Below, piece after piece: positions 11,098 through 57,689 of a stretch of DNA of 57,689 nucleotides. A model generated the notes under the pieces. The model saw only the letters and a program-made list of their open reading frames with translations, made no database searches and was not told where the DNA came from. A program made the position numbers and the translations under genes. Origin of the DNA: Candidatus Firestoneibacteriota bacterium (GTDB lineage Bacteria; Oederibacteriota; D2-FULL-39-29; CAIOVX01). The DNA is taken from assembly GCA_903861835.1 (NCBI GenBank), contig CAIOVX010000089.1, forward strand, positions 1-57,689, written 5' to 3'. Position 1 is the first letter of the stretch, and every line of letters starts with the position of its first letter.

Positions 11098-11134
11098 TAT
11101 AACGTTATAACGTTCTTAACGTTTTTAACGTAAA
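11098..11134. repeat. 9-bp ACGTT array (reverse orientation)
   Basis: Four units of 8-9 bp read TATAACGTT, ATAACGTTC, TTAACGTTT and TTAACGTAA. This is the reverse-complement orientation of the array at 32-62. It lies just upstream of the DegT-type gene and 35 bp downstream of the next gene's stop. AACGTT is itself palindromic, so orientation is read from the flanking A/T bases of each unit. Confidence 0.8.
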
Positions 11135-41914: not shown

Positions 41915-44086
41915 TTAGGCGTTCCAGTTTTGTCCTTCAAAATCAGAGCCCGGCACTGTGATATTTATTATACCCCTTGTCGGCCATTTTTCAACTTCGT
42001 TCTCTCCGCGATAAACTGCAAGCGTCACATTAATATTGTCCTTTTCCCCGGCCTCTAATACAGCATACGGAACGGAGGCCTCAAGGATTCGAAGAGCCGC
42101 AGCTTTTGCCGGCTCGCCCTGTATCGGGGTCCAAGCGGAGACCGTTTCTGACTGCCTGAGAAGTTCCGCAGACATTGCACCTCCCGGAAGTGAAGCCAGC
42201 TTAAGCCGGAACGTTGCTTTTCCGATAAAAGTATATTCGAAAACAAAATCCCGCATTTTTTCACCGGCAGGGTCGATGTTTAGATCCAACCGCAGGTAAA
42301 GGTTCTCCCGGTCAAACCCGAAATACAGGTTCTTGACAATGCTCTCCGCCCTGTGAATGGCGCTGTTCGCCTTGGCGGTCTCATAGATACAGGAACCGGC
42401 CCATTCGTAAAAATTAGATATCTTGCCGTCAATCACGGGCTTTATAAAAGCAGTCGGGGTAAGCTGGGTGCGAACTGTCTTTGCCGAGGAAAGTATCGGT
42501 GTCAACAGATTTGAAGGCACCTCTTTTCCTGCGAGCTCATACACTTTCTTCAAGTGGCCGCGGAAGAGCATATCAAACTCCTCGTCCTGCGCTGAGGAAT
42601 GATCGTCGCCGTACCACCAGCACCAGTCACTGCCTTCGGCAATATAAATTTCTTCCATTATCTCGGCGTAGAGAGAGGTATTTTGTTCCTTGATTTCTTC
42701 CCAGCCGGCTGCCGCTTCCCTGGCGGCCTTAAGGTATTTCCACGCCTTCTTGTCTTCATCGTGCCCTATCCAGATATAGAAATCGTGATTTATCCAGGAT
42801 CCCGGGAAAAGCTTAGGCAGTTCCGGAGTGTCGGGAAAAGCGTCCAGGTACTCGCTGACTTTAACGCATTTGATATCATTTTCCGCCGAAAGGCGGGAGT
42901 AGAGCCGCCTGAAGAAACCAAGCGCGTTGTTCTTGTAATATTCCCACGCGTTTTCTCCGTCCAGTACGACGGTCACGAGCGGGTCTTTCATATTAGTAGC
43001 CGCGCCTATCGCCTTAACCCTGGAGATAAAATCGTTCACCGCGGAATCTTCATCCCATTTAGAATAGACAAAGCCCAGCAGGTCGGCAAGTTCCTTGTCG
43101 CGGAATATGATTTTTAGTTCCTTGCCCTCCCTGTTTATCTTCCAGGGACGGTAGAGGACGTTCTCTTTCCGGTCAAAGAAGCCGAGTGAATTAAAAAGCA
43201 CCTCTTCATCTGAGGCTATCCAGGTGAACCCTGCGCCGGCGACTATGGGGACTATCCCCTCGGAAACGCTTCCCTCCGCCGGCCACATGCCGCGCGGCTC
43301 TACTCCGAATTTTTCCCGGAAATATTCCACGGCTCTTTTCACCTGCGCCGCCGCATCTTCGGGATAGGCAAAGCGAAAATCCTGGCGATTGTCCGGCATA
43401 GCGGTCTTAGCTATATCGGTGTCTACCAGGAGCGGAAGGATTGGATGATAAAACGGCGTCGTGGTAAGTTCTACCTGTCCTGAAGCGGCAGCTTCCCGGT
43501 ATTTCGGAATTATGCCTCGCAGCATAGAGATGTGTTTGGCAAGCACCCGCTCTTTGTCCTCTTCTGTAAAATTCCGGCCTTTGAGTATCAGCGCCTTTAT
43601 GGCCGCGTCTTCCTCGGCAGTCAGCGGGTCTATCCAACAGAGATTGAACCAGACCTGCAGGTCCAGGTAATCCTGGGAAGAAAAGGTTCCGGAGTGCTCG
43701 CGGAGTTCCGCGGGAGAGACATAATACCCGCGCTTTTCAAGCAGTTCCGCGTATCTTGGATGAACCTTTATCATGTTGTCCCACTGGGCCATAAAGAAAT
43801 TCCAGAGGATGAATATCCTTTCGTCCTCGTTCAACCCGGAAGCTTGCTTCTTCGTAAGCTCAAATAACGTATCGGTCACACCTGAATTATAGTCTTCTAT
43901 CTGGGAAAGCAAGGAAGGGACAAGATTGAAGGTCTGATGGATCTTCGGAAATTCATCGAGCAAGCGAACCATAAAGAGGTAATCTTTGGCGCCGTGCAGT
44001 CTCACCCACGGCATAAGAAGTTTGTTTTTTTCGCGATCCTTATAATATGGCTGATGCATATGCCATACAAAGGCAAGGTGTATCAT
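41915..44086 (-). CDS. Glycoside hydrolase family 57
   Basis: A 723-residue GH57 enzyme, a family of alpha-amylases, amylopullulanases and 4-alpha-glucanotransferases. It begins with the family motif FVWHMHQPYY (about 6-15). The nucleophile is E271 in GMWPAEGSVSEG, and the acid/base is D376 in VVLDGENAW. No signal peptide is seen, so it is probably cytoplasmic and acts on glycogen or maltodextrin. A C-terminal beta-rich region of about 170 residues (from about 550) may bind glucan. It begins 5 bp after the TPR gene. Which of the GH57 activities it has cannot be decided here. Confidence 0.93.
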   Translation of the reverse strand: MIHLAFVWHMHQPYYKDREKNKLLMPWVRLHGAKDYLFMVRLLDEFPKIHQTFNLVPSLLSQIEDYNSGVTDTLFELTKKQASGLNEDERIFILWNFFMAQWDNMIKVHPRYAELLEKRGYYVSPAELREHSGTFSSQDYLDLQVWFNLCWIDPLTAEEDAAIKALILKGRNFTEEDKERVLAKHISMLRGIIPKYREAAASGQVELTTTPFYHPILPLLVDTDIAKTAMPDNRQDFRFAYPEDAAAQVKRAVEYFREKFGVEPRGMWPAEGSVSEGIVPIVAGAGFTWIASDEEVLFNSLGFFDRKENVLYRPWKINREGKELKIIFRDKELADLLGFVYSKWDEDSAVNDFISRVKAIGAATNMKDPLVTVVLDGENAWEYYKNNALGFFRRLYSRLSAENDIKCVKVSEYLDAFPDTPELPKLFPGSWINHDFYIWIGHDEDKKAWKYLKAAREAAAGWEEIKEQNTSLYAEIMEEIYIAEGSDWCWWYGDDHSSAQDEEFDMLFRGHLKKVYELAGKEVPSNLLTPILSSAKTVRTQLTPTAFIKPVIDGKISNFYEWAGSCIYETAKANSAIHRAESIVKNLYFGFDRENLYLRLDLNIDPAGEKMRDFVFEYTFIGKATFRLKLASLPGGAMSAELLRQSETVSAWTPIQGEPAKAAALRILEASVPYAVLEAGEKDNINVTLAVYRGENEVEKWPTRGIINITVPGSDFEGQNWNA

Positions 44087-45626: not shown

Positions 45627-48600
45627 TTACTTAAGGTTCCTTCTTATTATTGAAATAAAAGTATTTACGGCGGTTTTGGTGCCCGCCGCGTCGGAACCTC
45701 CGACTATGATACCGTCCCTCGCGGACGACCTTACGTCATAGAACGCGGAATTCACCGCGTCCACCATGCAGACCACGCCGCGCCTTTCCCCGGGATACGC
45801 CGCCGAGACCTTTTCCAGCACTTTGTCGTAGACAAATGTATCCTGCGCTCCCAGGTGCCTGATTGCCGGGTTGGTGTCCTCGCTCCCGACGAAGATAAGG
45901 CTCTTGTCGCTGTCGCACGGTTCATTATTGAAGGTGTCCAGGAGATACCAGTCGGACTTGTCTATTCTCGGTTTCTTGACGGGTATCCCGAAAGTCTGTA
46001 TTTTCACCTCGTGCACGGCTTTCGGCGTCTTAAGCTCCTGCGCGGAGTAGGTTGAAACCTTCACTCCGTATTTCTGAAGTTCGGAACGGATTTCCCCGGC
46101 CAGCAGCTGCTCGGCGGAATTCCCGTAGACTATTCCAACCGGGTGCTTCACAAAACCTTTAATAGAGGGCTCCCACATTGAGACCCAGCACATATCTTTA
46201 AGCGGGCGGAGTAGGAATATTTTCGCTTGTCCCGGCTTGATTTCGCAGGGAATCCCGCTTGAAACAATTTCCTTCGCGGTCATTTTAAAACTAATCTTGC
46301 TCCTGAGCGCTTCAGGATTTTTCGCCTGCGCGGGTCCCTTATCAGCCTTCACCATAAGGTCCGGCGCTTCTCCGGTCACGTCAATTACCGCGTAATCGCC
46401 GTCCGCGAGATTTCCGACTTTAAGCGTAATTTTGCGCGAAAATTCCTGTTCAAGGTTGCAGGCCGCGGCAAGCGTGTAGCCGTCGCCGGAAAGCGTACCG
46501 CAATACATATCATAATTATCATCAAGACCGGCAACCGAAACGCTCTTGTCTATGTTCCAGCCGTCAATTATTTTCTTGAAATACCTTGAGAGGGCCCTTA
46601 CCAGCGCTTCATCAGGGCTGTCAGTCATAGGAAAATATGAAACGATAATATTTCGCTTCTTGTTAATAAAACCCAAAGCGACTTCCCTGCCGCCGAGGTC
46701 TCCCTTAAGAAACACTTCGTTCCCGCCGTCCGGCTCGTAGTAAAAACCCAGTTTTGTGTCCTGAAGCTTGCCGGCGCCTGGCAGTGAAATTTTCACCGGC
46801 TTTGGGAAATCCATCTGATACTGGTTCTGACAAACGATTCTGTAGCCCGCGAGCTCTGCCAGTTCTTTAACCGGGAAGACTTCCCCGGACTTGCCCGAGT
46901 ACCTGCGCGGCTCATTCACGTAGGCAAAACCGGCGGCGTTCAATATCATAAGTTTCCCGCCGTTGTTCACAAAATCGATGATTCGCTTTACGTCAGTCTT
47001 TGAGATATGTTCGGTCGTATCCCCGAGTACGATGAGTTTATACGCTGACAGGTCTTTTACCTCTGACATACGGATAAAATCGGCGTTGAGTCCTGTTGAG
47101 CGCAGGACACGCATCGCCGCTGTCTCAAAATTATTATTGTTAACACCGAATCCCTTCAGGAAGAAGCTCTCTTCAACAGTCGGAATAAGCACTTTCGGTT
47201 CGGACGGTTTGGCAGGAAGGAAAAGATGAGCCATTCGGTACAGCGTTTTATTCGCGGCTGACGCGTAAATAGCGCCCCGCTCAAGGCGGACCGGCGGGCC
47301 GTCAAAAGCCGTCTTTTCAAAGAAGCAGATTTGCCCTGTCCAGTGCTTGATATTGAACTTTGGCGCCTGGTCGGCTATGTAATTCGTCTGGTGGAACACG
47401 TGCTGGATGCCGTCGTCGTACCATTCATTCCAGAATGCCTTCACCCCGCAAAAAACCCCGGAAATAAGTTTATTATAAACAATCTTCACTTCGTCCTTTC
47501 CTATATATTTTTTCGGCCCCGGCGCGTGGTCGGCCTGCTTTCTTCCGTCAAGGTAAGCGTCCTCGCAGGGCAACAGATACCCTCCGGTCATCGCGCTTTT
47601 CTTAAAATAGCGTGACACCGAAGCGGCAACACGCGGGGTGTACCAGCCAAACTGGTCAAGAGACGCTCCTGGCTGCCAGGATTGCGAACCGAAATCTCCC
47701 TTTGCGCCTTCGGCAATGTGATTCTGGTCCATTTTATGGATAAGAGTACTGTCATACTTAATCATCTCCCCCTGAGCCCAAGACCTGAACTTCCGGAAGT
47801 TCGTGTACTCGGGGGTATACTGCCAGAAGTCCCTGCTGGCGGCCGTCGTATTTTCCTGCGTCGGCGCGACGATATCCTCAAAGGCGGCGTATGTTCTGTG
47901 CCACTCCGCATTCAACTTCTCTATCGTCTTGTATTGGATTCTCAGGTATTCCTGGAACTGCACGAGCGACTGGTCGTCGTAGCCGCAATCCTCGGGATGC
48001 CACAGTTCCTCAAATATATAGTAATAGGCCATCGCGGGATGCAGGTAGAGCTGGTTGAAAAGCATCGTGTAAGTCTCTTTCTGTATCTCTTTGTCCAGCG
48101 CCGAATTGAGCGGCGGTTTTATGAAGTACCTGTTCGCCCTGCCTCTTGAGTCCACCGAGGGCGTCCCCTCGCCGGCGACTTTGCGCGGGACAAAGGAAAA
48201 AGCGTTGCCCATATAGAGCGTGGTGAGGTAGCCCCACGAATACATCATATTCATCGTGTCTATGACCGACCAGGGGTAATCTTCCTCGAGAGACAGGCGC
48301 TCCCAGTCCGGGTTAAAGAAGTGGCTGGAGTTTTGCATATTGGGAGTGACCAGCAGGCAGTTTGTCAGACAGTAATAAGTAAATTGGTCTGAAATATATG
48401 GGTGATAATTATACTGCGTCTTGAGCTGGAAGTAGGGCTTGCCGTTGAGCGAGACAAAATTGCCTTCGTTCTTCAGGACCGGCGGCTCGCCCTCGATGAA
48501 TGTGACTTTCCTGATCTTCTTGGACTTTTCGCTGATTATTTTCCATTCCCATTCCAGCATCTTATTCTTGTCTTCCGCCGGAAGGACTATCAGGTAGTTG

Positions 48601-49994
48601 AGCGTCCAGGCCGCGCCTATGTCACAGTCCCTATAAATTCCCGAGGCTTCTCGCAGATCCGCGAAGAGCCGAAGGTCCAGCTTGCCGTCCGTCACCACAA
48701 CATTGCGTATCTCGTGGCGGTCAACTTTTGTTTCTCCGGGTTTCACGCCCTTTTCCCTTACTTTCCCCTGAACTTCTATGCTGAAAGCCGTTCTTCCCGC
48801 GTAATTCGCGTAGCCGATACCGGCAATCATATTGTACGTGCCGTTCGGGACATCAACCATGAATTCAGCGGAAAGATCGTCGTCAAGGTACATCGCGCCG
48901 CGCCGTTCTTCAACGTCCTTCTGATAAAGGTCGTTCATAAAATAATGATAACTCCTCGCGCGGGTAACATAGCCGCGTTCCAGCGAGGTCTTTAGGTCTA
49001 TGTATTTGTCAAAAAAAGCCACATAGTCATTTCCCATCCAGTATGAAGTAAAAAGATCCTTGTCATACTGCTGGTACCAGTAAGAACGCCTGATTTCGCT
49101 CGATCTCCAGCCCGGGATTTCCCTGTCTTTTGGCATCGGCTGAAAACTAAAATCGCTGATCTGCGCGTCGGTCAAAGGAAGATCGGAACCCTGGTAAACG
49201 GTGTTTGCCGGGGAATATTTCCAGCCATAGCCTTTTTCCTTTGAATAATTTGCGTATTCGCTTACCGGCGTGAACCCGTCAGGATTTTCCTTGGTCACAG
49301 GCCCGAAGCTGAAAAGATAGGTCCTGGCCGAAGCATCCCTCGCCTTAACAACCGCTCCGGAAAGTTTCACGCTCTTTATCAGCACCTTACCCCTGGCGTC
49401 CTTTGTGCCGCGGACGGTGAAGCTTGCCTTGAACTCGTCGCAGTCGGTCCTGTATCCCGGTATTCTCTGACTCTGGCCCCAGAAGCCGTCTCGAGGCGTT
49501 CTCTGCAGGTACCACGCAAAGGCCTCGGATTTCTGGAGGCGCAGGAAACTGATGCCCGGCCCCCCGGTCCTCGCGTACCCGCCGCTCATCGCCTCGGTCT
49601 TTCCGTCTTTTAAAAACTTTGAGTCGCAGTAATTGAGTTTGGGATTAAAATTCTGCTTAAAAGTCCCTGTGAGTTTCTTTCCCGCCTTGTCGTTTGCGAA
49701 AACCACATCAATGGAAATATCTCCCGATTTCATGTTCTCCGGCGGAATCTCAAACTCAACATCAAAAGCCGCTTCGCTCGTGACCCAGGATTTCAGCGTT
49801 AACGTGTATTCCTGCGTTCCGCTAATATCCAGGGAGATACCCTGCTCGGTGAAAGCCTCTTTCGGGATGCTCGTCTCATAGGCGGAATAATCAGGCTTTG
49901 ACACGGAAATGTCTAAAGTTTCCCACGCGGCAAAAAGGCCGGCGCCGGAAAAAAGCGCCGCCAAGAACAATATAGTAAATTTCCTGCTCAACAT
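45627..49994 (-). CDS. Secreted GH42-like beta-galactosidase family protein
   Basis: A 1455-residue secreted protein with a signal peptide (1-23). The N-terminal 500 residues are beta-sandwich-like and may bind carbohydrate. From about 500 to 900 a TIM barrel resembles GH42/GH-A enzymes, with a candidate acid/base pair E662-E663 in YYYIFEELWHPEDCG and a later FWNEWYDDG that could hold the nucleophile. Residues about 960-1080 look like the GH42 trimerisation or amidotransferase-like domain (YKLIVLGDTTEHISKTDVKRIIDF). It is 14 bp after the VWA-fusion gene, with GGAGGAAGA before the ATG. The GH42 assignment rests on pattern only. Confidence 0.75.
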   Translation of the reverse strand: MLSRKFTILFLAALFSGAGLFAAWETLDISVSKPDYSAYETSIPKEAFTEQGISLDISGTQEYTLTLKSWVTSEAAFDVEFEIPPENMKSGDISIDVVFANDKAGKKLTGTFKQNFNPKLNYCDSKFLKDGKTEAMSGGYARTGGPGISFLRLQKSEAFAWYLQRTPRDGFWGQSQRIPGYRTDCDEFKASFTVRGTKDARGKVLIKSVKLSGAVVKARDASARTYLFSFGPVTKENPDGFTPVSEYANYSKEKGYGWKYSPANTVYQGSDLPLTDAQISDFSFQPMPKDREIPGWRSSEIRRSYWYQQYDKDLFTSYWMGNDYVAFFDKYIDLKTSLERGYVTRARSYHYFMNDLYQKDVEERRGAMYLDDDLSAEFMVDVPNGTYNMIAGIGYANYAGRTAFSIEVQGKVREKGVKPGETKVDRHEIRNVVVTDGKLDLRLFADLREASGIYRDCDIGAAWTLNYLIVLPAEDKNKMLEWEWKIISEKSKKIRKVTFIEGEPPVLKNEGNFVSLNGKPYFQLKTQYNYHPYISDQFTYYCLTNCLLVTPNMQNSSHFFNPDWERLSLEEDYPWSVIDTMNMMYSWGYLTTLYMGNAFSFVPRKVAGEGTPSVDSRGRANRYFIKPPLNSALDKEIQKETYTMLFNQLYLHPAMAYYYIFEELWHPEDCGYDDQSLVQFQEYLRIQYKTIEKLNAEWHRTYAAFEDIVAPTQENTTAASRDFWQYTPEYTNFRKFRSWAQGEMIKYDSTLIHKMDQNHIAEGAKGDFGSQSWQPGASLDQFGWYTPRVAASVSRYFKKSAMTGGYLLPCEDAYLDGRKQADHAPGPKKYIGKDEVKIVYNKLISGVFCGVKAFWNEWYDDGIQHVFHQTNYIADQAPKFNIKHWTGQICFFEKTAFDGPPVRLERGAIYASAANKTLYRMAHLFLPAKPSEPKVLIPTVEESFFLKGFGVNNNNFETAAMRVLRSTGLNADFIRMSEVKDLSAYKLIVLGDTTEHISKTDVKRIIDFVNNGGKLMILNAAGFAYVNEPRRYSGKSGEVFPVKELAELAGYRIVCQNQYQMDFPKPVKISLPGAGKLQDTKLGFYYEPDGGNEVFLKGDLGGREVALGFINKKRNIIVSYFPMTDSPDEALVRALSRYFKKIIDGWNIDKSVSVAGLDDNYDMYCGTLSGDGYTLAAACNLEQEFSRKITLKVGNLADGDYAVIDVTGEAPDLMVKADKGPAQAKNPEALRSKISFKMTAKEIVSSGIPCEIKPGQAKIFLLRPLKDMCWVSMWEPSIKGFVKHPVGIVYGNSAEQLLAGEIRSELQKYGVKVSTYSAQELKTPKAVHEVKIQTFGIPVKKPRIDKSDWYLLDTFNNEPCDSDKSLIFVGSEDTNPAIRHLGAQDTFVYDKVLEKVSAAYPGERRGVVCMVDAVNSAFYDVRSSARDGIIVGGSDAAGTKTAVNTFISIIRRNLK

Positions 49995-50008: not shown

Positions 50009-53000
50009 CTATTTCTTGCTTACACTAATTCTAAATCCCTTTACCTGCGAAGGGACAAAGCTTCCCGCGTTAAAGGTGCCGTTCTTGCAAACCACCGGCT
50101 CATCCTCCAGAGTCCTGACGGAAACACTCTCTCCGCCCGTCTCAATATTTACATACGCGCCGTCCGGAGCGGCAGCCCCTATTAGGAGCATATAAGTTCC
50201 ACTGCCGGTGTTATAGAGTGTGCCGTGAACATCGGAAGAGCTTATGCTGAAGCGCCTGTCGGAGGGCACAAAATCCTGTTCAGTTGTGGCGCCCGAAGCC
50301 GGCAGGCTCTTGCAGAGTTTCCACCAGTTAAGGTGCCCTTTGCCGGCAGCCGGCCACAATATTATAGGCGTGTCGGCGTACATAGCCCCGCACGCGCCGA
50401 TACTGCCCGAGAGCGTGTCCGTAACGGGAGCAAGCCCCGCGCCGATTCCGTATCTTCTATTGCTCGACTTCGGGTACTTGCTTAAATCCTTGAACGCGCA
50501 GAGGTCAAACTCCGCGAAGGCCAGCTCGGTCGGATTAAAATCACCCGGCTCCCCTATGAGGAAACCTTTCTGCCCTACTATTTTCCGAAGCGCCTTCATA
50601 CAAAGCGCAAAGGGCGCGGCGTTCACCAGGTCGGCCCCGTCGTATTTAAAAGAGACCTTCTCGCCAAGCACGGTAAACTCGCCCTGCGGAAGTTTGTTGC
50701 TGAAAAAATTCACCCCGTTCACAAAGATGCCGTCCTGGTCCTGCTTCAGGTACTGCTTGAACCAGGAATCATCTCCCGCCATTTCCTTTAAGTCCTTTAT
50801 TTCAATGGAGACGCCCACCCTCATTCCCTCGGCATGGGCCGCTTCAACCAACTTTGCGAGCATTTGAGATCTCCAGCCGGCACCGAGGAGGAGGACATTG
50901 CAGCCTTCCGCAGACATAGATCCTATGTCAGAGACGGAAGGCAACCGGTCCTTAGCGAAATAAACCCTTGCTCCTATAAGCAGATTCCTGTCATCGGAAA
51001 GAGCGTCTGGCCTTGACGATCTCTTCCTTGACCCGGACGCGAAGGTCAGGGTGTTCTTGTAACTGAACGACTCGCTCTCATTGAAACCCTTTGACTCGCC
51101 TTCATAGAGATTCCAACCCGTTGAGAAACAGGGGTCCCCTCTCATAGAGCCTTCCCAGGTAGGGACCGGGGACATTCCGGAGTTGGGACGTATTAGCGAG
51201 AAAGACCCGAAATCAGTCTTGGTGCCGGCTATGGAAATGGCCTTTTCCAGGGCGAACTCGGTAAAAGAGGCCGCAGGCGCGCCGGGCAAATGCGCCAAGT
51301 CATAGGATGCCGCCACAAAGAGCAGCGGCTTGTCGGTAACTACAGGCTTTGCGTCCTTCTTCAGGTCAATATCCAGCGGAACGTGCTTGTAGCCCTGAAT
51401 CACCGATTGCCACTGGCTCATCTTGTAATACTGATTCTCGTCGGGGAATGCGTACCCGAAATTGAATTGCTTTGCCCGGTTCGGGTTCGGTTCTTTGTAG
51501 AGCATGTCGTCAAGATTCACCGACATCGCAGCCCAGTCCAGCGCATAGGTTTCATTCGCGGGAAGCTCCAACGTAATCGCCGTAATTATAATGCCTGAAT
51601 CAAAGACCCTCACCCGCTGGCGCGCTATCCAGGGTATATCCTGCATTCTGTTTTCATATATCTTTGGGCGGCACTCCGTCTCAAATATCAATTCATCAGC
51701 CGCTTCCTTAATAACTTTAAGCTTCGCATTCCTGTCCGCGCTCGCATAGGCGATGCCCCACTCCCCCGAATAATAAGCCATCCTGCTAGTTGAAACTGAC
51801 AGAGCCGGAATGGTATCCAGAGACTTCCACGCAAAAGTCGAGTTTATTCTTTGCCAGGAGGTTTTCCTTACCTTCGGGAAACCGCGATCCCACCAGCCGA
51901 GGGAAGACAAGCCTCTTTGTTCAACGCAGGAGAGCTCTCCGCCTCGCGTTGTATCCCAGGTGTAGCGGAAATTATTTCCCGTGACTATCACTTTGCTCCC
52001 GGCATATTCTATTTGCATCGCTTTCGCTTCCGCAGGCTTTAATAGGAGCGCTCCCGCAAAGACGGCAACGAAAAGCAGAACGGCTTTCTTTCCCTTTGGA
52101 TTTCTTCTCTTAAGAAAACCGGTGAAGGCGGTAGAGCGCCTGACGAATATTTCCGCCGCAAAGAATATCAGGGCCAGCACCAGCCAGAGCACGGGGTCTA
52201 CCTCGAAATGAGTGACTGCTTTCCCGCCGGACATGAGTTTTCCGGATTCGGGCTTGAATACTCCGCCCGTGTACTCGCTCAGATTCTTCAAAGTCTCTAT
52301 TCCTTTTTCAGGCGCGTCAAACTCCGCCGCGTAAGACTTCGTCCAGGAGAATACCCTCGTGGCCTTGCCCGTGGAAACAAAGAACGCAGCATCGCATTTT
52401 TTCAGCTTTGTGAGCACCGCCGGACTTGTCTTGATTTCTGCCTCTTCTGTCTTCCCCTCAACACGCCTGTAGATTTTCTGTTCCGGCTGGGATTCAATGA
52501 TGGTGAAGACCGGATAGCCCTCCGCGAATTTCATCTCCGGATTTATAAGCTGATACGGAGGCAGAAGATCAGACGCCACAAGCTGAACCCAGAACTTCTC
52601 AAACCCCGCGGAGTCCTGCTCTATCCAATTTGAGATCCAGGCCGAGGAAACTGAAGACATAAAGGCCGACGCCTGCCCGCGCCCGTAGCGCATCCTGGCA
52701 AGCAGGGGTTCCTGTTTGTTTGAAATAGTTAGCGGAGTCCACGCGTGCTGGCGGGTCCCGGCGCGGTTGTAGCCGGAGAGTTTCGGCATCGCGGAAATAT
52801 CGAGCCCGAGCAGAGCGGGGTCCTCGTCCTTCTTGCTGGCCGAGAGCGCGGCCTCTACTATGAGTTTATCCTGGAAGTTCTTAGCATCCTGCACAACAAT
52901 GGAAGGTATCTCTTTCACGGATTTAACGTGATAAAACCTGCCTTTTCCCGCATAGGCAAGCGTATTCAGCAATTTTTCGTTCGCGTTAAGGCCCACGGCT

Positions 53001-54532
53001 ACCGCCGAAAGCGTCATATTATTCTTTTCTATGGATGAAAGGAGTAGCCCGTAATCCGGGCTTTCAGTCTCTTTACCGTCCGAGATGATGACAAGGTGCT
53101 TATAGGCCACATCCGCTTCCTTGATAATCCTCAGCGCCTCGCTCAAAGCTCCGTAAATGTTTGTCATTCCGAGTGCGCCAAGCCTCGCTATTTCATACTT
53201 CAGCGGGTCAAGATCTGTAACTTTGGTAAGCGGGATAATATTATGATAATCGGAGTCGAAGGAGACCAGCGCGAGCATATCCTTCTTGCCGAGATTTTCC
53301 ACGGCAGCTATGGCTATTTCCTTCGCGATATCTATCTTTCCGACCGCGGCGGAAACGCCTTCGTTCATTGACCACGAGTTGTCAAAGACAATGCCAACAG
53401 CAAACGGCGGATATTCTTTCTTGGGACGGAGCAGAACCGGGAAGACCGGCTCCAGTGAGGTGCCGAGATAACCGCCTGCGCCGTAAGAGTTGATACCTCC
53501 CGTGAAAAGAATTGAACCGCCGTCAGAGACATACTTTTCAAGCGCGTCCAGCTGGTCTGCCTTGAACGCTTTGGCCGGAACATTATCCAGCACCACGCAG
53601 TCGCACGCAAATTGCGCCGGCAGGCTGTCCGGGGCTAAAACCTTTACCGTCATCTTGTTCGCCTCAAGAGTCGCCTTTAACGGATGCTGGGAAGGCGGAA
53701 TCCTGGAAATTACAAGAACACGCGGGGCGAGCGGCGTATATATGAAGGCAGTTGCCGTATTATTCCAGTTACAATTGTCCGGGTCGAACTTCGCCCTCGC
53801 TTCCACGCGGTGCATTCCGGTCTTGCTGAAACTTACCGGCAGGCTTGCCGAAGTAAGCCCGGGCGAGAGCCTTACCTTCTTGCTGCTTATTTCATCCCCG
53901 TCCGCGAAAAGCGTCAGTTCACAAAGGGTCGGCTCGGTGCAGCGCAGCCAGACTTCCACCGGCGCGGGGAGGTTCTGCCAGGATACGGGGGGTGTGATTA
54001 GCCCGGTGACCGCTCCTTCGTTTTTAACACGCGGGAGCGGGTGGGCATAGATCTTCACGCCTTCTTTTTGAAACTTCGGAATAAGCGAAAGCGGATCCGC
54101 GGCGGTGTAGAGCCCGTCGGAAAGAAGCAGTATCCTTTTTTCTCCGGAGCCCTTGAAATTATTTGCAGCGGTGTTGAGCGTTTCGGTAATGTCAGAGACC
54201 CCGCGGTCCTCTTTGCCGAACTCAAAGACCTGGCAGGGCAGGTTTTCTTTCGCGGCCTCCCGTTTGGCATCTTCAATTGTTTTGCCGGCGAGCCTGGTTC
54301 CCTCGTCGCTTATTGACGCCGACCTGTCCACCGCCACCATAAGTTCAACCTTATGCGTGGGGTAATTGCCCGGCAGGCGCACATCAAGCATAAAAGCAGC
54401 GACCAAAGCGAGAAGCCCCAGACGCAGCCCCAAAAGGATAAGCAGGCGCGCGCCTTTCCACGGAAGATCCGTTCGCAGGGCAATGTAAAGCGTGCCCGCA
54501 ATTATGAGGACTAGCAGTATCGCGTAAAACAT
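50009..54532 (-). CDS. VWA-domain membrane protein fused to a glycosidase-like domain
   Basis: A 1507-residue protein. The ATG at 54532 is used because the longer frame starts with TTG inside the upstream gene. Residues 1-55 hold two helices. A first von Willebrand A domain starts with VAVDRSASIS (D69), an amidotransferase-like region lies near 275-370, and a second VWA domain begins with a complete MIDAS motif DNSWS at 384-388. A helix at 781-798 ends this BatA/aerotolerance-like part. Residues 815-838 look like a second signal peptide (LLFVAVFAGALLLKPAEAKA), and 839-1507 resemble a secreted TIM-barrel glycosidase with an N-terminal beta domain. The whole frame is open, so this is one gene as read. 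Confidence 0.8.
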   Translation of the reverse strand: MFYAILLVLIIAGTLYIALRTDLPWKGARLLILLGLRLGLLALVAAFMLDVRLPGNYPTHKVELMVAVDRSASISDEGTRLAGKTIEDAKREAAKENLPCQVFEFGKEDRGVSDITETLNTAANNFKGSGEKRILLLSDGLYTAADPLSLIPKFQKEGVKIYAHPLPRVKNEGAVTGLITPPVSWQNLPAPVEVWLRCTEPTLCELTLFADGDEISSKKVRLSPGLTSASLPVSFSKTGMHRVEARAKFDPDNCNWNNTATAFIYTPLAPRVLVISRIPPSQHPLKATLEANKMTVKVLAPDSLPAQFACDCVVLDNVPAKAFKADQLDALEKYVSDGGSILFTGGINSYGAGGYLGTSLEPVFPVLLRPKKEYPPFAVGIVFDNSWSMNEGVSAAVGKIDIAKEIAIAAVENLGKKDMLALVSFDSDYHNIIPLTKVTDLDPLKYEIARLGALGMTNIYGALSEALRIIKEADVAYKHLVIISDGKETESPDYGLLLSSIEKNNMTLSAVAVGLNANEKLLNTLAYAGKGRFYHVKSVKEIPSIVVQDAKNFQDKLIVEAALSASKKDEDPALLGLDISAMPKLSGYNRAGTRQHAWTPLTISNKQEPLLARMRYGRGQASAFMSSVSSAWISNWIEQDSAGFEKFWVQLVASDLLPPYQLINPEMKFAEGYPVFTIIESQPEQKIYRRVEGKTEEAEIKTSPAVLTKLKKCDAAFFVSTGKATRVFSWTKSYAAEFDAPEKGIETLKNLSEYTGGVFKPESGKLMSGGKAVTHFEVDPVLWLVLALIFFAAEIFVRRSTAFTGFLKRRNPKGKKAVLLFVAVFAGALLLKPAEAKAMQIEYAGSKVIVTGNNFRYTWDTTRGGELSCVEQRGLSSLGWWDRGFPKVRKTSWQRINSTFAWKSLDTIPALSVSTSRMAYYSGEWGIAYASADRNAKLKVIKEAADELIFETECRPKIYENRMQDIPWIARQRVRVFDSGIIITAITLELPANETYALDWAAMSVNLDDMLYKEPNPNRAKQFNFGYAFPDENQYYKMSQWQSVIQGYKHVPLDIDLKKDAKPVVTDKPLLFVAASYDLAHLPGAPAASFTEFALEKAISIAGTKTDFGSFSLIRPNSGMSPVPTWEGSMRGDPCFSTGWNLYEGESKGFNESESFSYKNTLTFASGSRKRSSRPDALSDDRNLLIGARVYFAKDRLPSVSDIGSMSAEGCNVLLLGAGWRSQMLAKLVEAAHAEGMRVGVSIEIKDLKEMAGDDSWFKQYLKQDQDGIFVNGVNFFSNKLPQGEFTVLGEKVSFKYDGADLVNAAPFALCMKALRKIVGQKGFLIGEPGDFNPTELAFAEFDLCAFKDLSKYPKSSNRRYGIGAGLAPVTDTLSGSIGACGAMYADTPIILWPAAGKGHLNWWKLCKSLPASGATTEQDFVPSDRRFSISSSDVHGTLYNTGSGTYMLLIGAAAPDGAYVNIETGGESVSVRTLEDEPVVCKNGTFNAGSFVPSQVKGFRISVSKK

Positions 54533-54542
54533 TTTAGGGTTT

Positions 54543-56243
54543 CTACTCCGTGTACCTTTTATGGAACAATATCCATTCAAGACCCAGCAGAATCATTGCC
54601 AGAACTGTCATTAGCGGGGCAAGCGACCTTCTTCCCGGAGGAAGCGCGCTCTCGTTGCCGGAAACATTTCGGAGGTCTGACTCTCCCGCGTCAAGCAGGC
54701 TGAACGCGTGGCTCCTGTTGTCGGCTTTACTCTCAATAAATCCTATTTTTCTGGAGGTCCAGCCGTTTATGTATTCCCCGGCGCGCAGAATTTCCTGGCG
54801 GGGAAGCATCCAGGAAAGCGAGTTCTTCATTAGCGCGGGAAAGGATGGCGTGAGCGGAAGACGGGAACTCGCCGCCGAAGCGGGTATGCCTATATAAAAG
54901 ATCCTGATGCCGTTTATTTCTCCCGCCCAGATGATCGGCTTATCTTCGGCCCAGACAAGCGGCTTCGCCCAGCCCGGAACTTTTGTAAGCACCACCCCCT
55001 TAACGCTTAAGCCCCTGAGGTTTACATCTTTGAGCAGAGGGTCGTCAGCCTGGCGGTCTATGACCACAGGCTTGTCAAGCAGTCCCTGGACTTCCACGAA
55101 GCCGGAAAGATACGGGCAGATTATCACAGAACTGTTTTTCGGCAGGACTGACGGCATTATATTTACAAAGACAGAGGCCGCGCCGCCTTCTCCCTCAGCG
55201 CCGGAAACCGGATAGCCCACTCCCTCCGCGCGAAGAGCAGCGAGCACCGAGAGCACATAGGTATTCCTGCTCTTTATGTCAGGCCAAACAACATTCACCC
55301 GCATCTCGTCTATAGAGGGGACTATCACCCTCGCTTCATTGTCAATGTCCAACCGGTCTTCAATACCGCGGGCTGAAAGCGTCACGTTTACGGCCGCCCT
55401 TCCGGATTCCGTAAACCTAATGGTTTCTTCCCTGGCAGTCCCCGGAGCCACACCTCTTTCCTCATAAGTCCCGCCGGTCCTTCCGTTTCCGAAAACGGCG
55501 CCCGAAAGGGTTGCGTTATTTTCTCCGTAATTCGCCACGGTGAATTTCGCAATAATGTCGTCGCCCGCGCGTTCAGCCGAGAGCGCTATGATTCCCGCGT
55601 TCCATTTTGCGTGCGGCGCGATCCAAGATCTCACGCGGGTTCCCCAGGCTGATTCCGGCGGCTCGCGGTCGGTGAACATATATATTTCCGTTCCCTCTTT
55701 ATTCCCCCAGAGTTTAAACGCCTTCTCCAGCATGGCCAAAACATCAACCGGCCCGTCAAAACTTTCAATGCCTTCTATCTTCCGGACTGTCTCGCGCGAA
55801 GGAACTCCCGAGGGATAAATGACGCGAAGTTCATCGGCCGCTTCCACAACGCTGACTAAGGAGCCCGCGTCCAGGGATTCGGCAATCTTTGCCGCGGCTG
55901 CCTTCGCCTTTTCAAAGTTGCTCTTTCCGGAAGAGACCGCGTTCATACTCGCCGAATTATCCATAAGAATTATCAGAGATTTTGCCTTTACCGGAGAAAC
56001 CCCCACGCTTAAATCAGCGGCGGCAAAGACGAGCAATGTAATGATAAGCGCCGTAAGGGTGAATCCAAGGAAGCGTTTGAAACGCTCGGAAGATCTGCCG
56101 AAGGGCTCGGCGCCGAGGAACTTTTCCCAGAGAAAAAGAGCGCTCGTGTTGATTCTTTTCCTCGGCAGCGGCATAAGGTAAAGTATGAGCGGAATGATTA
56201 TGAATAAAAGCAGCCAGAGATATCCTGGATTGCTGAAACTCAT
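54543..56243 (-). CDS. BatA-like VWA-domain membrane protein
   Basis: A 566-residue membrane protein of the BatA/aerotolerance type. The N-terminus SFSNPGYLWLLLFIIIPLILYL holds the first helix, a second is near 58-76, and the VWA MIDAS motif MDNSASMN follows near 95-102. A beta-rich middle follows, and the last hydrophobic segment is near 545-560. Such proteins occur with MoxR ATPases and DUF58 proteins in complexes of uncertain role. Neither of those is present here. The start overlaps the upstream gene by 4 bp (ATGA). Function is uncertain, but a membrane-linked metal-binding interaction module is likely. Confidence 0.82.
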   Translation of the reverse strand: MSFSNPGYLWLLLFIIIPLILYLMPLPRKRINTSALFLWEKFLGAEPFGRSSERFKRFLGFTLTALIITLLVFAAADLSVGVSPVKAKSLIILMDNSASMNAVSSGKSNFEKAKAAAAKIAESLDAGSLVSVVEAADELRVIYPSGVPSRETVRKIEGIESFDGPVDVLAMLEKAFKLWGNKEGTEIYMFTDREPPESAWGTRVRSWIAPHAKWNAGIIALSAERAGDDIIAKFTVANYGENNATLSGAVFGNGRTGGTYEERGVAPGTAREETIRFTESGRAAVNVTLSARGIEDRLDIDNEARVIVPSIDEMRVNVVWPDIKSRNTYVLSVLAALRAEGVGYPVSGAEGEGGAASVFVNIMPSVLPKNSSVIICPYLSGFVEVQGLLDKPVVIDRQADDPLLKDVNLRGLSVKGVVLTKVPGWAKPLVWAEDKPIIWAGEINGIRIFYIGIPASAASSRLPLTPSFPALMKNSLSWMLPRQEILRAGEYINGWTSRKIGFIESKADNRSHAFSLLDAGESDLRNVSGNESALPPGRRSLAPLMTVLAMILLGLEWILFHKRYTE

Positions 56244-57556
56244 TTCTCCTCCTTGCGGAGGCGTTCAAAATATCCCTTCACGACCCCAAGGAGAGAATCC
56301 GGCAGGGGCTCCTGGTTGAGCACCCCGTCGCTGCTTTTTACCTGCGCGTCCGGCGCGGCCTTGTCCGTGATTTCCGCGAGTTTTGATTTGGTCATCCTCG
56401 CGGCCAGCGCGAACTCCGGCAATTGCATCTGTTGATCCCGTCCCGGCTGGCGCGTAACGGCCCTGCCGGCGGAGATAATTTCAAAACCGGTTTTATCCGG
56501 CGACTTTGCCATTCTTGAAGCCGTGCCGCGCGGATCCTTGGATACCGCTCCCGCGAGCGTGCCCTTGTCGTCCTTGCCGCCCTTTGTTCCTTTTGCTTTG
56601 TCCCCCGAAGCTTCCTCGCCCATCACCGCTATATCGGTTCCCTTGCCCGCGGCCGCCTGGTCCTTCGCCTTTTCTTTCTTTGAGGCCTGCAGGTCCTTGA
56701 GCAGCTGCGCGTCAAGCTTGACGGGATTTATTTTTTCTTCTTCTTTGTTCTGGCTGTTCTTCTCGCCGGAGAGCTCGTCCTTGTCCCACCTGATGGGGGT
56801 CACGCCTTCCATATCTATTTCCTGTTTCTCTGTGACCTGATCCATCAGCTTGTCAACCATCTCGTTCGTGATTTTAACCGCTTCTTTTTCTGCCTTCTCA
56901 GGTTTTATTTCCTTAAACTCTTCCGCCTGTTCTTTCGTGATCGGCTTTCTGGCTTCCTCTTTCGGCTTCTCCTCTTTCTGCGCCGCCGAAGCCGCGCTCT
57001 TTACCGGACCAGAAGTCTGGGAAGTCACCTTCTTGATGGCGGTAAGCTCTTTGACGGAAAGGCGGCTGTCGGAAGAAGTGAAAATGAGCGTGACCGCGTA
57101 AAGAATAAAGACCACGCCTGAAACTTTTCCGAGGAAGCGCCACCTGTCAACACGGGCAAGCGCGTACCTGTTTTTCACCTGAACCTTTTCAAGGGCAGCC
57201 GAGGCGAGCGAACTTGTCAGCGTTCCGAGCCAGCCGTACCGCTTCAGGTCTTTTTCAAACTCAAAGGCCGAGGAGAAAAGGTCTCCAGTTCCGGCGCGCT
57301 CGTCAAGCAGTTTGAAGAGTTCCAGCACATCCGGGGTTCTCTTTGTGCCGCGAAAGTAAACAACGCCTGCCGCTATAAGAAAACCGAGCGGAACAAGAAA
57401 CACCCAAAAGAACGGGAATTTAAAGGCCTGTCTTAAAACAAGGAAGGTTAAAAGAGCATTAAGGGCAATAGCAGCGATAAAGAGTACTCTGTTAAAGCAG
57501 TACTCAAAAAGCCATAGGTTTCTGACTTTTATTAGAATACCTTCCCTGGGTTTCAA
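56240..57556 (-). CDS. DUF4175-like membrane protein with charged Lys/Glu-rich region
   Basis: A 438-residue protein with a TTG start supported by AAGGAG eight bases upstream. Two helices lie near the N-terminus (about 22-40 and 50-70) and another near 142-160, giving a topology like DUF4175 proteins. Residues 175-330 are highly charged and low-complexity (repeated KEEKPKEE-type and KGTKGGKDDKG-type stretches), probably disordered. The C-terminus ends in a helix. It is the first gene of the VWA-glycosidase operon and overlaps the BatA-like gene by 4 bp. Function is unknown. Its composition and position suggest a scaffold for the VWA proteins. Confidence 0.65.
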   Translation of the reverse strand: MKPREGILIKVRNLWLFEYCFNRVLFIAAIALNALLTFLVLRQAFKFPFFWVFLVPLGFLIAAGVVYFRGTKRTPDVLELFKLLDERAGTGDLFSSAFEFEKDLKRYGWLGTLTSSLASAALEKVQVKNRYALARVDRWRFLGKVSGVVFILYAVTLIFTSSDSRLSVKELTAIKKVTSQTSGPVKSAASAAQKEEKPKEEARKPITKEQAEEFKEIKPEKAEKEAVKITNEMVDKLMDQVTEKQEIDMEGVTPIRWDKDELSGEKNSQNKEEEKINPVKLDAQLLKDLQASKKEKAKDQAAAGKGTDIAVMGEEASGDKAKGTKGGKDDKGTLAGAVSKDPRGTASRMAKSPDKTGFEIISAGRAVTRQPGRDQQMQLPEFALAARMTKSKLAEITDKAAPDAQVKSSDGVLNQEPLPDSLLGVVKGYFERLRKEEK

Positions 57557-57580
57557 ACAAAAACTCCTTAAAAATATTAT

Positions 57581-57668
57581 CGTTTATAACGTAAACCGAA
57601 AACACAAGAAAATCTCGTTTATAACGTAAGACTAAACCTTGATTTGCCTTGCTGTTGCTTTACGTTAT
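57581..57668. repeat. 9-bp ACGTT-type units (reverse orientation)
   Basis: Scattered units CGTTTATAACGTAA at 57581-57594 and 57616-57629, and TTTACGTTATT near 57659. They lie upstream of the VWA operon start, in the reverse orientation seen upstream of other blocks. The array may continue beyond the window edge. Confidence 0.65.
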
Positions 57669-57689
57669 TCTGCTATGCCAGACGTAGTC

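Follow-up and report, generated by a model that had tools for sequence, protein, structure and literature searches.

Does the long minus-strand reading frame at this locus encode a genuine fusion of a membrane protein with a second, exported protein, and if so, what would become of the joined chain? The window, that is, the whole stretch of 57,689 nucleotides that was analysed, contains here a single open reading frame of 1507 residues, exactly where the sequence-only reading had placed it. The features of the locus, all on the minus strand, are listed below, with residue numbers referring to the fusion protein and G001-G003 denoting the three other genomes of the genus.

56240-57556, minus: upstream gene of 438 residues, a membrane protein by inspection, with no family match; the same gene is present in G001-G003
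54543-56243, minus: upstream gene of 566 residues, a BatA-domain VWA protein (PF07584, E=3.9e-9; VWA_2)
50009-54532, minus: the fusion reading frame, 1507 residues, with ATG at 54532 and stop at 50009-50011
54476-54532, minus: predicted transmembrane helix 1, residues 1-19 (hydropathy 2.51)
54389-54445, minus: predicted transmembrane helix 2, residues 30-48 (hydropathy 2.51)
54035-54355, minus: first VWA-like region, residues about 60-166 (motif DRSAS, D69-x-S71-x-S73)
52895-53392, minus: VWA domain, residues 381-546 (PF00092, E=1e-17; DNSWS at 384)
52580-52876, minus: C-terminal part of a GATase1-like domain, residues 553-651 (PF07090, E=1.3e-9)
52145-52201, minus: predicted C-terminal transmembrane helix, residues 778-796, followed by VRRST (hydropathy; paralogues stop after the matching motif)
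52085-52144, minus: basic loop, residues 797-816, predicted to be cytoplasmic from hydropathy and charge and including the n-region of the putative signal peptide
52019-52084, minus: signal-peptide-like h- and c-region, residues 817-838 (A/L-x-A before Met839)
50012-52018, minus: putative exported C-terminal half, residues 839-1507 (669 residues), an orphan family with no family match and a weak structural model
45627-49994, minus: downstream gene of 1455 residues, GH42-like, with a signal-peptide-like N-terminus (PF02449, E=7.9e-8; PF08532)

The fusion is found as an uninterrupted, full-length reading frame with the same neighbours in two further genomes of the genus, with 1507 residues and 92% identity in G003 and with 1504 residues and 81% identity in G002. 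The fourth genome, G001, has only the first 235 residues of the protein, at a contig end. Among the three fusion proteins the alignment of the junction is free of gaps, and neither a stop nor an indel is present there. The dN/dS values for the three genomes are at most 0.16 in every region, both halves and the junction included, and lie at 0.10-0.16 across residues 806-840. The genomes that carry the orthologues were binned separately. We have hardly any doubt that the fused reading frame is genuine and conserved.

Neither the 45 genomes of the phylum nor the 384 relatives were found to carry the two halves as separate genes, and among the relatives sampled the C-terminal fusion appears to be confined to this genus. 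A scan of contigs with two exact seven-residue patterns returned just two, both from Firestonebacteria and both matching the same-genus genomes, while a scan of viral sequences gave no match. No large internal repeats or duplication were found, no link to a defence system was seen, and a literature search found no paper on such a fusion.

Turning to the architecture of the protein, the topology prediction by hydropathy yields four hydrophobic segments, at residues 1-19, 30-48, 778-796 and about 817-835. The MIDAS DxSxS motif occurs twice, at residues 69 and 384. The second copy belongs to the VWA domain, which scores 65.3 bits compared to the Pfam cut-off of 23.8, and the adjoining PF07090 match has 38.4 bits compared to a cut-off of 27. 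The first VWA-like region (residues about 60-166) has no match in Pfam and is assigned by its motif. On these matches, the N-terminal half is a GATase1-like/VWA membrane protein, the type of partner that adjoins BatA. The earlier label of BatA-like is thus acceptable in a loose sense, but the BatA domain itself (PF07584) is absent from the fusion protein in the Pfam search and sits in the upstream gene.

Using a profile of the N-terminal half, relatives could be located in 48 of the 384 genomes, most of them outside the phylum. Ca 27 of these relatives were followed to the stop codon, and in them a single C-terminal helix and a tail of cytoplasmic type conclude the chain. The longest two, with 1608 residues (G128:C35, L078) and 1457 residues (G339:C45, L079), are extended at the N-terminus and not at the C-terminus, and these extensions may have arisen by fusion to the BatA cistron upstream.

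The fusion is part of a tight minus-strand run that consists of the 438-residue gene, the BatA-domain gene, the fusion and the GH42-like gene, with gaps of ca 10-15 bases flanking the fusion. The GH42-like gene is conserved in G002, and over the length of the retrieved stretch also in G003. Its exported-looking product also has a match to a trimerisation domain, and a GH57 protein of 723 residues (PF03065, E=2.1e-62) is encoded further down on the same strand, at 41915-44086. In all four genomes, the contigs end either at the 438-residue gene or a short distance upstream of it (at 57557-57689 in the window and at the ends of L017, L018 and L019). DUF58 genes are present on other contigs of the genome, and any MoxR and DUF58 genes preceding this operon would lie beyond the contig end. 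Three further MoxR-DUF58 clusters are found in the present genome (G000), namely C74 (L049, 1091-10811), C22 (L043) and C7 (L036), with C74 constituting a full MoxR-DUF58-BatA-type-VWA series of separate genes. A short repeat, TCGTTTATAACGTAA, occurs at 57580-57594 and 57615-57629 on the plus strand, with variants at 11119, 25390 (minus), 25907 and 40175; these six matches with at most two mismatches in the window compare with 0.04 expected. Another AT-rich repeat (TTTGTAAGGTTTATAAGG...) occupies the corresponding place in G003 and G002, and it is perhaps because of these repeats that the contigs break near the 438-residue gene.

A central question is where the first protein would naturally end. 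The paralogue in cluster C74 of the same genome terminates in ...LLLAALALCAEWYVRRTSGML (motif EWYVRRTSGML, then stop), and a paralogue in the sister family (G007) terminates in ...LLIALLAGEWFLRRISGLL (motif EWFLRRISGLL, then stop). At the matching place, the fusion protein reads LALIFFAAEIFVRRSTAFTGFLKRR (EIFVRRSTAF...) and continues. By this comparison, the natural end of the VWA protein is probably near residue 800-806, and since the paralogues and the ca 27 relatives all end after the C-terminal helix, it is probably there that the first gene lost its stop. The sequence-only reading had proposed that two genes were merged without a stop codon, and this agrees with a frame that is unbroken in three genomes and with paralogues that stop at the matching helix. 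It had also taken the first 838 residues to be a complete VWA protein ending in a helix; the assignment as a VWA membrane protein stands, whereas the paralogues move its end from residue 838 to near 800-806.

Beyond this point, 7-8 of the 19 residues at 798-816 are K or R, which corresponds to a positive-inside charge. There follows the second signal-like stretch that had been noted ahead of the final ca 669 residues; it is recovered here as the hydropathy segment at about 817-835, and the codon of Met839 (52018-52016) comes directly after the stretch. The sequence upstream of Met839 is AVLLFVAVFAGALLLKPAEAKA, and in the other two genomes TALLFIGVFAAALLVKPAELKA and TALLSFVVLAGALLAPSVDLSA. By inspection, residues 817-838 are arranged like an internal signal peptide of the n-h-c type: the n-region is basic, the core is short, and small residues occupy -3/-1. 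Ala838 is invariant and the -3 position is A or L, such that AKA, LKA and LSA precede Met839 in the three genomes. Of all 22-residue windows in the protein, this one is at the same time the least conserved, with 8 of 22 residues invariant compared to a mean of 79% over all windows; the hydrophobicity and the small residue preceding Met839 are kept while the sequence varies. The three membrane helices, unlike this stretch, are conserved, with 20 of 22 residues invariant at 778-799. These properties suggest that the stretch 817-838 behaves like a cleavable signal peptide.

The best explanation, which we favour with moderate confidence, is that two neighbouring cistrons of a BatA/VWA operon were fused specifically within the Ca. 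Firestonebacteria lineage, the product being made as one polypeptide and then cleaved by signal peptidase. Starting from the fused gene, a single polypeptide would be translated. The VWA/GATase1-like half would be anchored by helices 1 and 2 and by the C-terminal helix, such that its domains lie outside the inner membrane. The third helix would bring the chain back to the cytoplasm, where a short basic loop would lead into the former signal peptide of the second gene, and this peptide would in turn direct the export of the second half. The chain would then most likely be cut after Ala838 by signal peptidase I. This would leave the VWA protein in the membrane, with a hydrophobic hairpin at its C-terminus, and release the second protein into the periplasm. 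In BB0173 of Borrelia, a BatA-type protein, the VWA domain faces the periplasm (PMC5700661). With the same topology here, both halves would be located outside the membrane, and there would therefore be no topological conflict. That the fusion protein is cleaved is, on balance, what we expect; the topology and the cleavage, like the catalytic role considered next, are what we infer from the sequence.

The nature of the exported half is more difficult to establish. It had been described as a TIM-barrel glycosidase, a claim that these searches do not bear out, as there is neither a sequence match nor a significant structural match, and what is left is a weak hint from the secondary structure. The half has no match in Pfam, NCBIfam, PHROGs, the PDB or plasmids, no match to a glycoside hydrolase family profile, and no relatives outside the genus in the 384 genomes. 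Two AlphaFold models, built from the three sequences, have pLDDT values of 33 and 39, and Foldseek with these low-confidence models gives nothing below 0.001, the best E being 0.068. Alignment to the GH42-like neighbour with hhalign, in which the profiles are very shallow, shows no homology. The predicted elements are a beta-rich part, an alternating beta/alpha part (about residues 1188-1321) and a beta-rich end, a succession that hints at a glycosidase-like layout, and the half is possibly carbohydrate-active. It could instead be a non-catalytic binding or envelope protein, which would be compatible with any of the other readings and which we consider a real possibility, although we lean against it. 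The missing glycosidase family match speaks for this option, as does, by inspection, the Asn in the motif DGIFVNG, which presumably stands where many glycosidase barrels carry Asp. However, the non-significant Foldseek matches include many TIM-barrel enzymes, several of which are glycosidases, and the adjoining gene is GH42-like.

Another option is that the chain remains uncut. Residues 817-838 would then form a fourth helix in the membrane, and the second domain would stay beside the VWA domains, as an enzyme tethered to the outer face of the inner membrane. The hydropathy of residues 817-835, 1.94-2.02, does reach the transmembrane threshold, and a single conserved reading frame with both halves on the same side would fit. 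However, the short hydrophobic core ends in KP or APS, a small residue is conserved at the cleavage position, and the stretch is poorly conserved compared to the three real helices; we regard this arrangement as rather unlikely. Co-translation followed by cleavage is favoured over permanent tethering because residues 817-838 are the least conserved while the three membrane helices are conserved, and because they resemble a signal peptide. That a new exported enzyme family belongs permanently to a VWA complex of the MoxR/BatA type, with the VWA machinery presenting or controlling a surface carbohydrate-active domain, seems to us distinctly improbable.

We give little credence also to the formation of two products by internal initiation, starting either from the invariant Met839 or from codons within the last helix. 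ATG839 as well as GTG781 and GTG785 are indeed invariant in the three genomes, but by inspection no ribosome-binding-like sequence is conserved before ATG839 (GGAAG is present only in G000), and no promoter-like site was found in 51500-52700. Initiation at ATG839 would moreover give a product without a signal, while one initiated at 781-785 would include the greater part of the last helix of the VWA protein. Between that helix and Met839, no ATG, GTG or TTG is conserved in the three genomes. This leaves little room for the start of a separate second protein that would have a signal of its own, and the second half is therefore most simply made within the single chain. Finally, a frame-restoring assembly error that joined two genes is exceedingly improbable, for although such artefacts occur in MAGs generally, it is excluded in practice here by the same unbroken frame and junction in three separately binned genomes of 81-92% identity, with no indel nearby and with the low dN/dS of purifying selection.

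Although BatA/VWA (MoxR-type) membrane systems are widespread, few of their targets are known. The conserved fusion hints that the exported half is made with such a system and works alongside it, and the same may hold for the GH42-like neighbour. The fusion also resembles a polyprotein that is divided by signal peptidase, and few natural bacterial examples of this kind are known. While the GATase1-like/VWA half and fusions in this type of operon are already known, the C-terminal fusion to an orphan exported half appears to be new.

It is instructive to compare the protein with known systems. GH42 and other TIM-barrel glycoside hydrolases share with the C-terminal half the predicted order of beta-rich, beta/alpha and beta-rich parts, and the neighbour is GH42-like, but the half is without a sequence match or a significant structural match. 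A parallel in organization is FbcH of Bradyrhizobium, a precursor of cytochrome b and cytochrome c1 that is cut by signal peptidase. In both cases a single gene encodes a membrane protein and then an internal signal sequence with a periplasmic domain; the proteins are, however, unrelated, and the cleavage is here predicted from sequence. The GATase1-like (PF07090)/VWA proteins of MoxR-DUF58 operons have the same two N-terminal helices, DxSxS motif, VWA domain, GATase1-like domain and C-terminal helix, and the same BatA gene alongside, but they end after that helix and a short tail, whereas the fusion adds an exported half of 669 residues. In the BatA-VWA fused plasmid proteins of Ketogulonicigenium (WP_085787426) and Deinococcus (WP_264778077), neighbouring membrane cistrons are likewise joined via a helix-basic-helix hairpin, with the difference that there the upstream BatA is fused and here the downstream exported protein. 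Another fusion in a BatA-type operon is bb0170 of Borrelia (PMC5700661). Together with the hairpin fusions of Ketogulonicigenium and Deinococcus, it indicates that such fusions seem to be easily tolerated in this type of operon.
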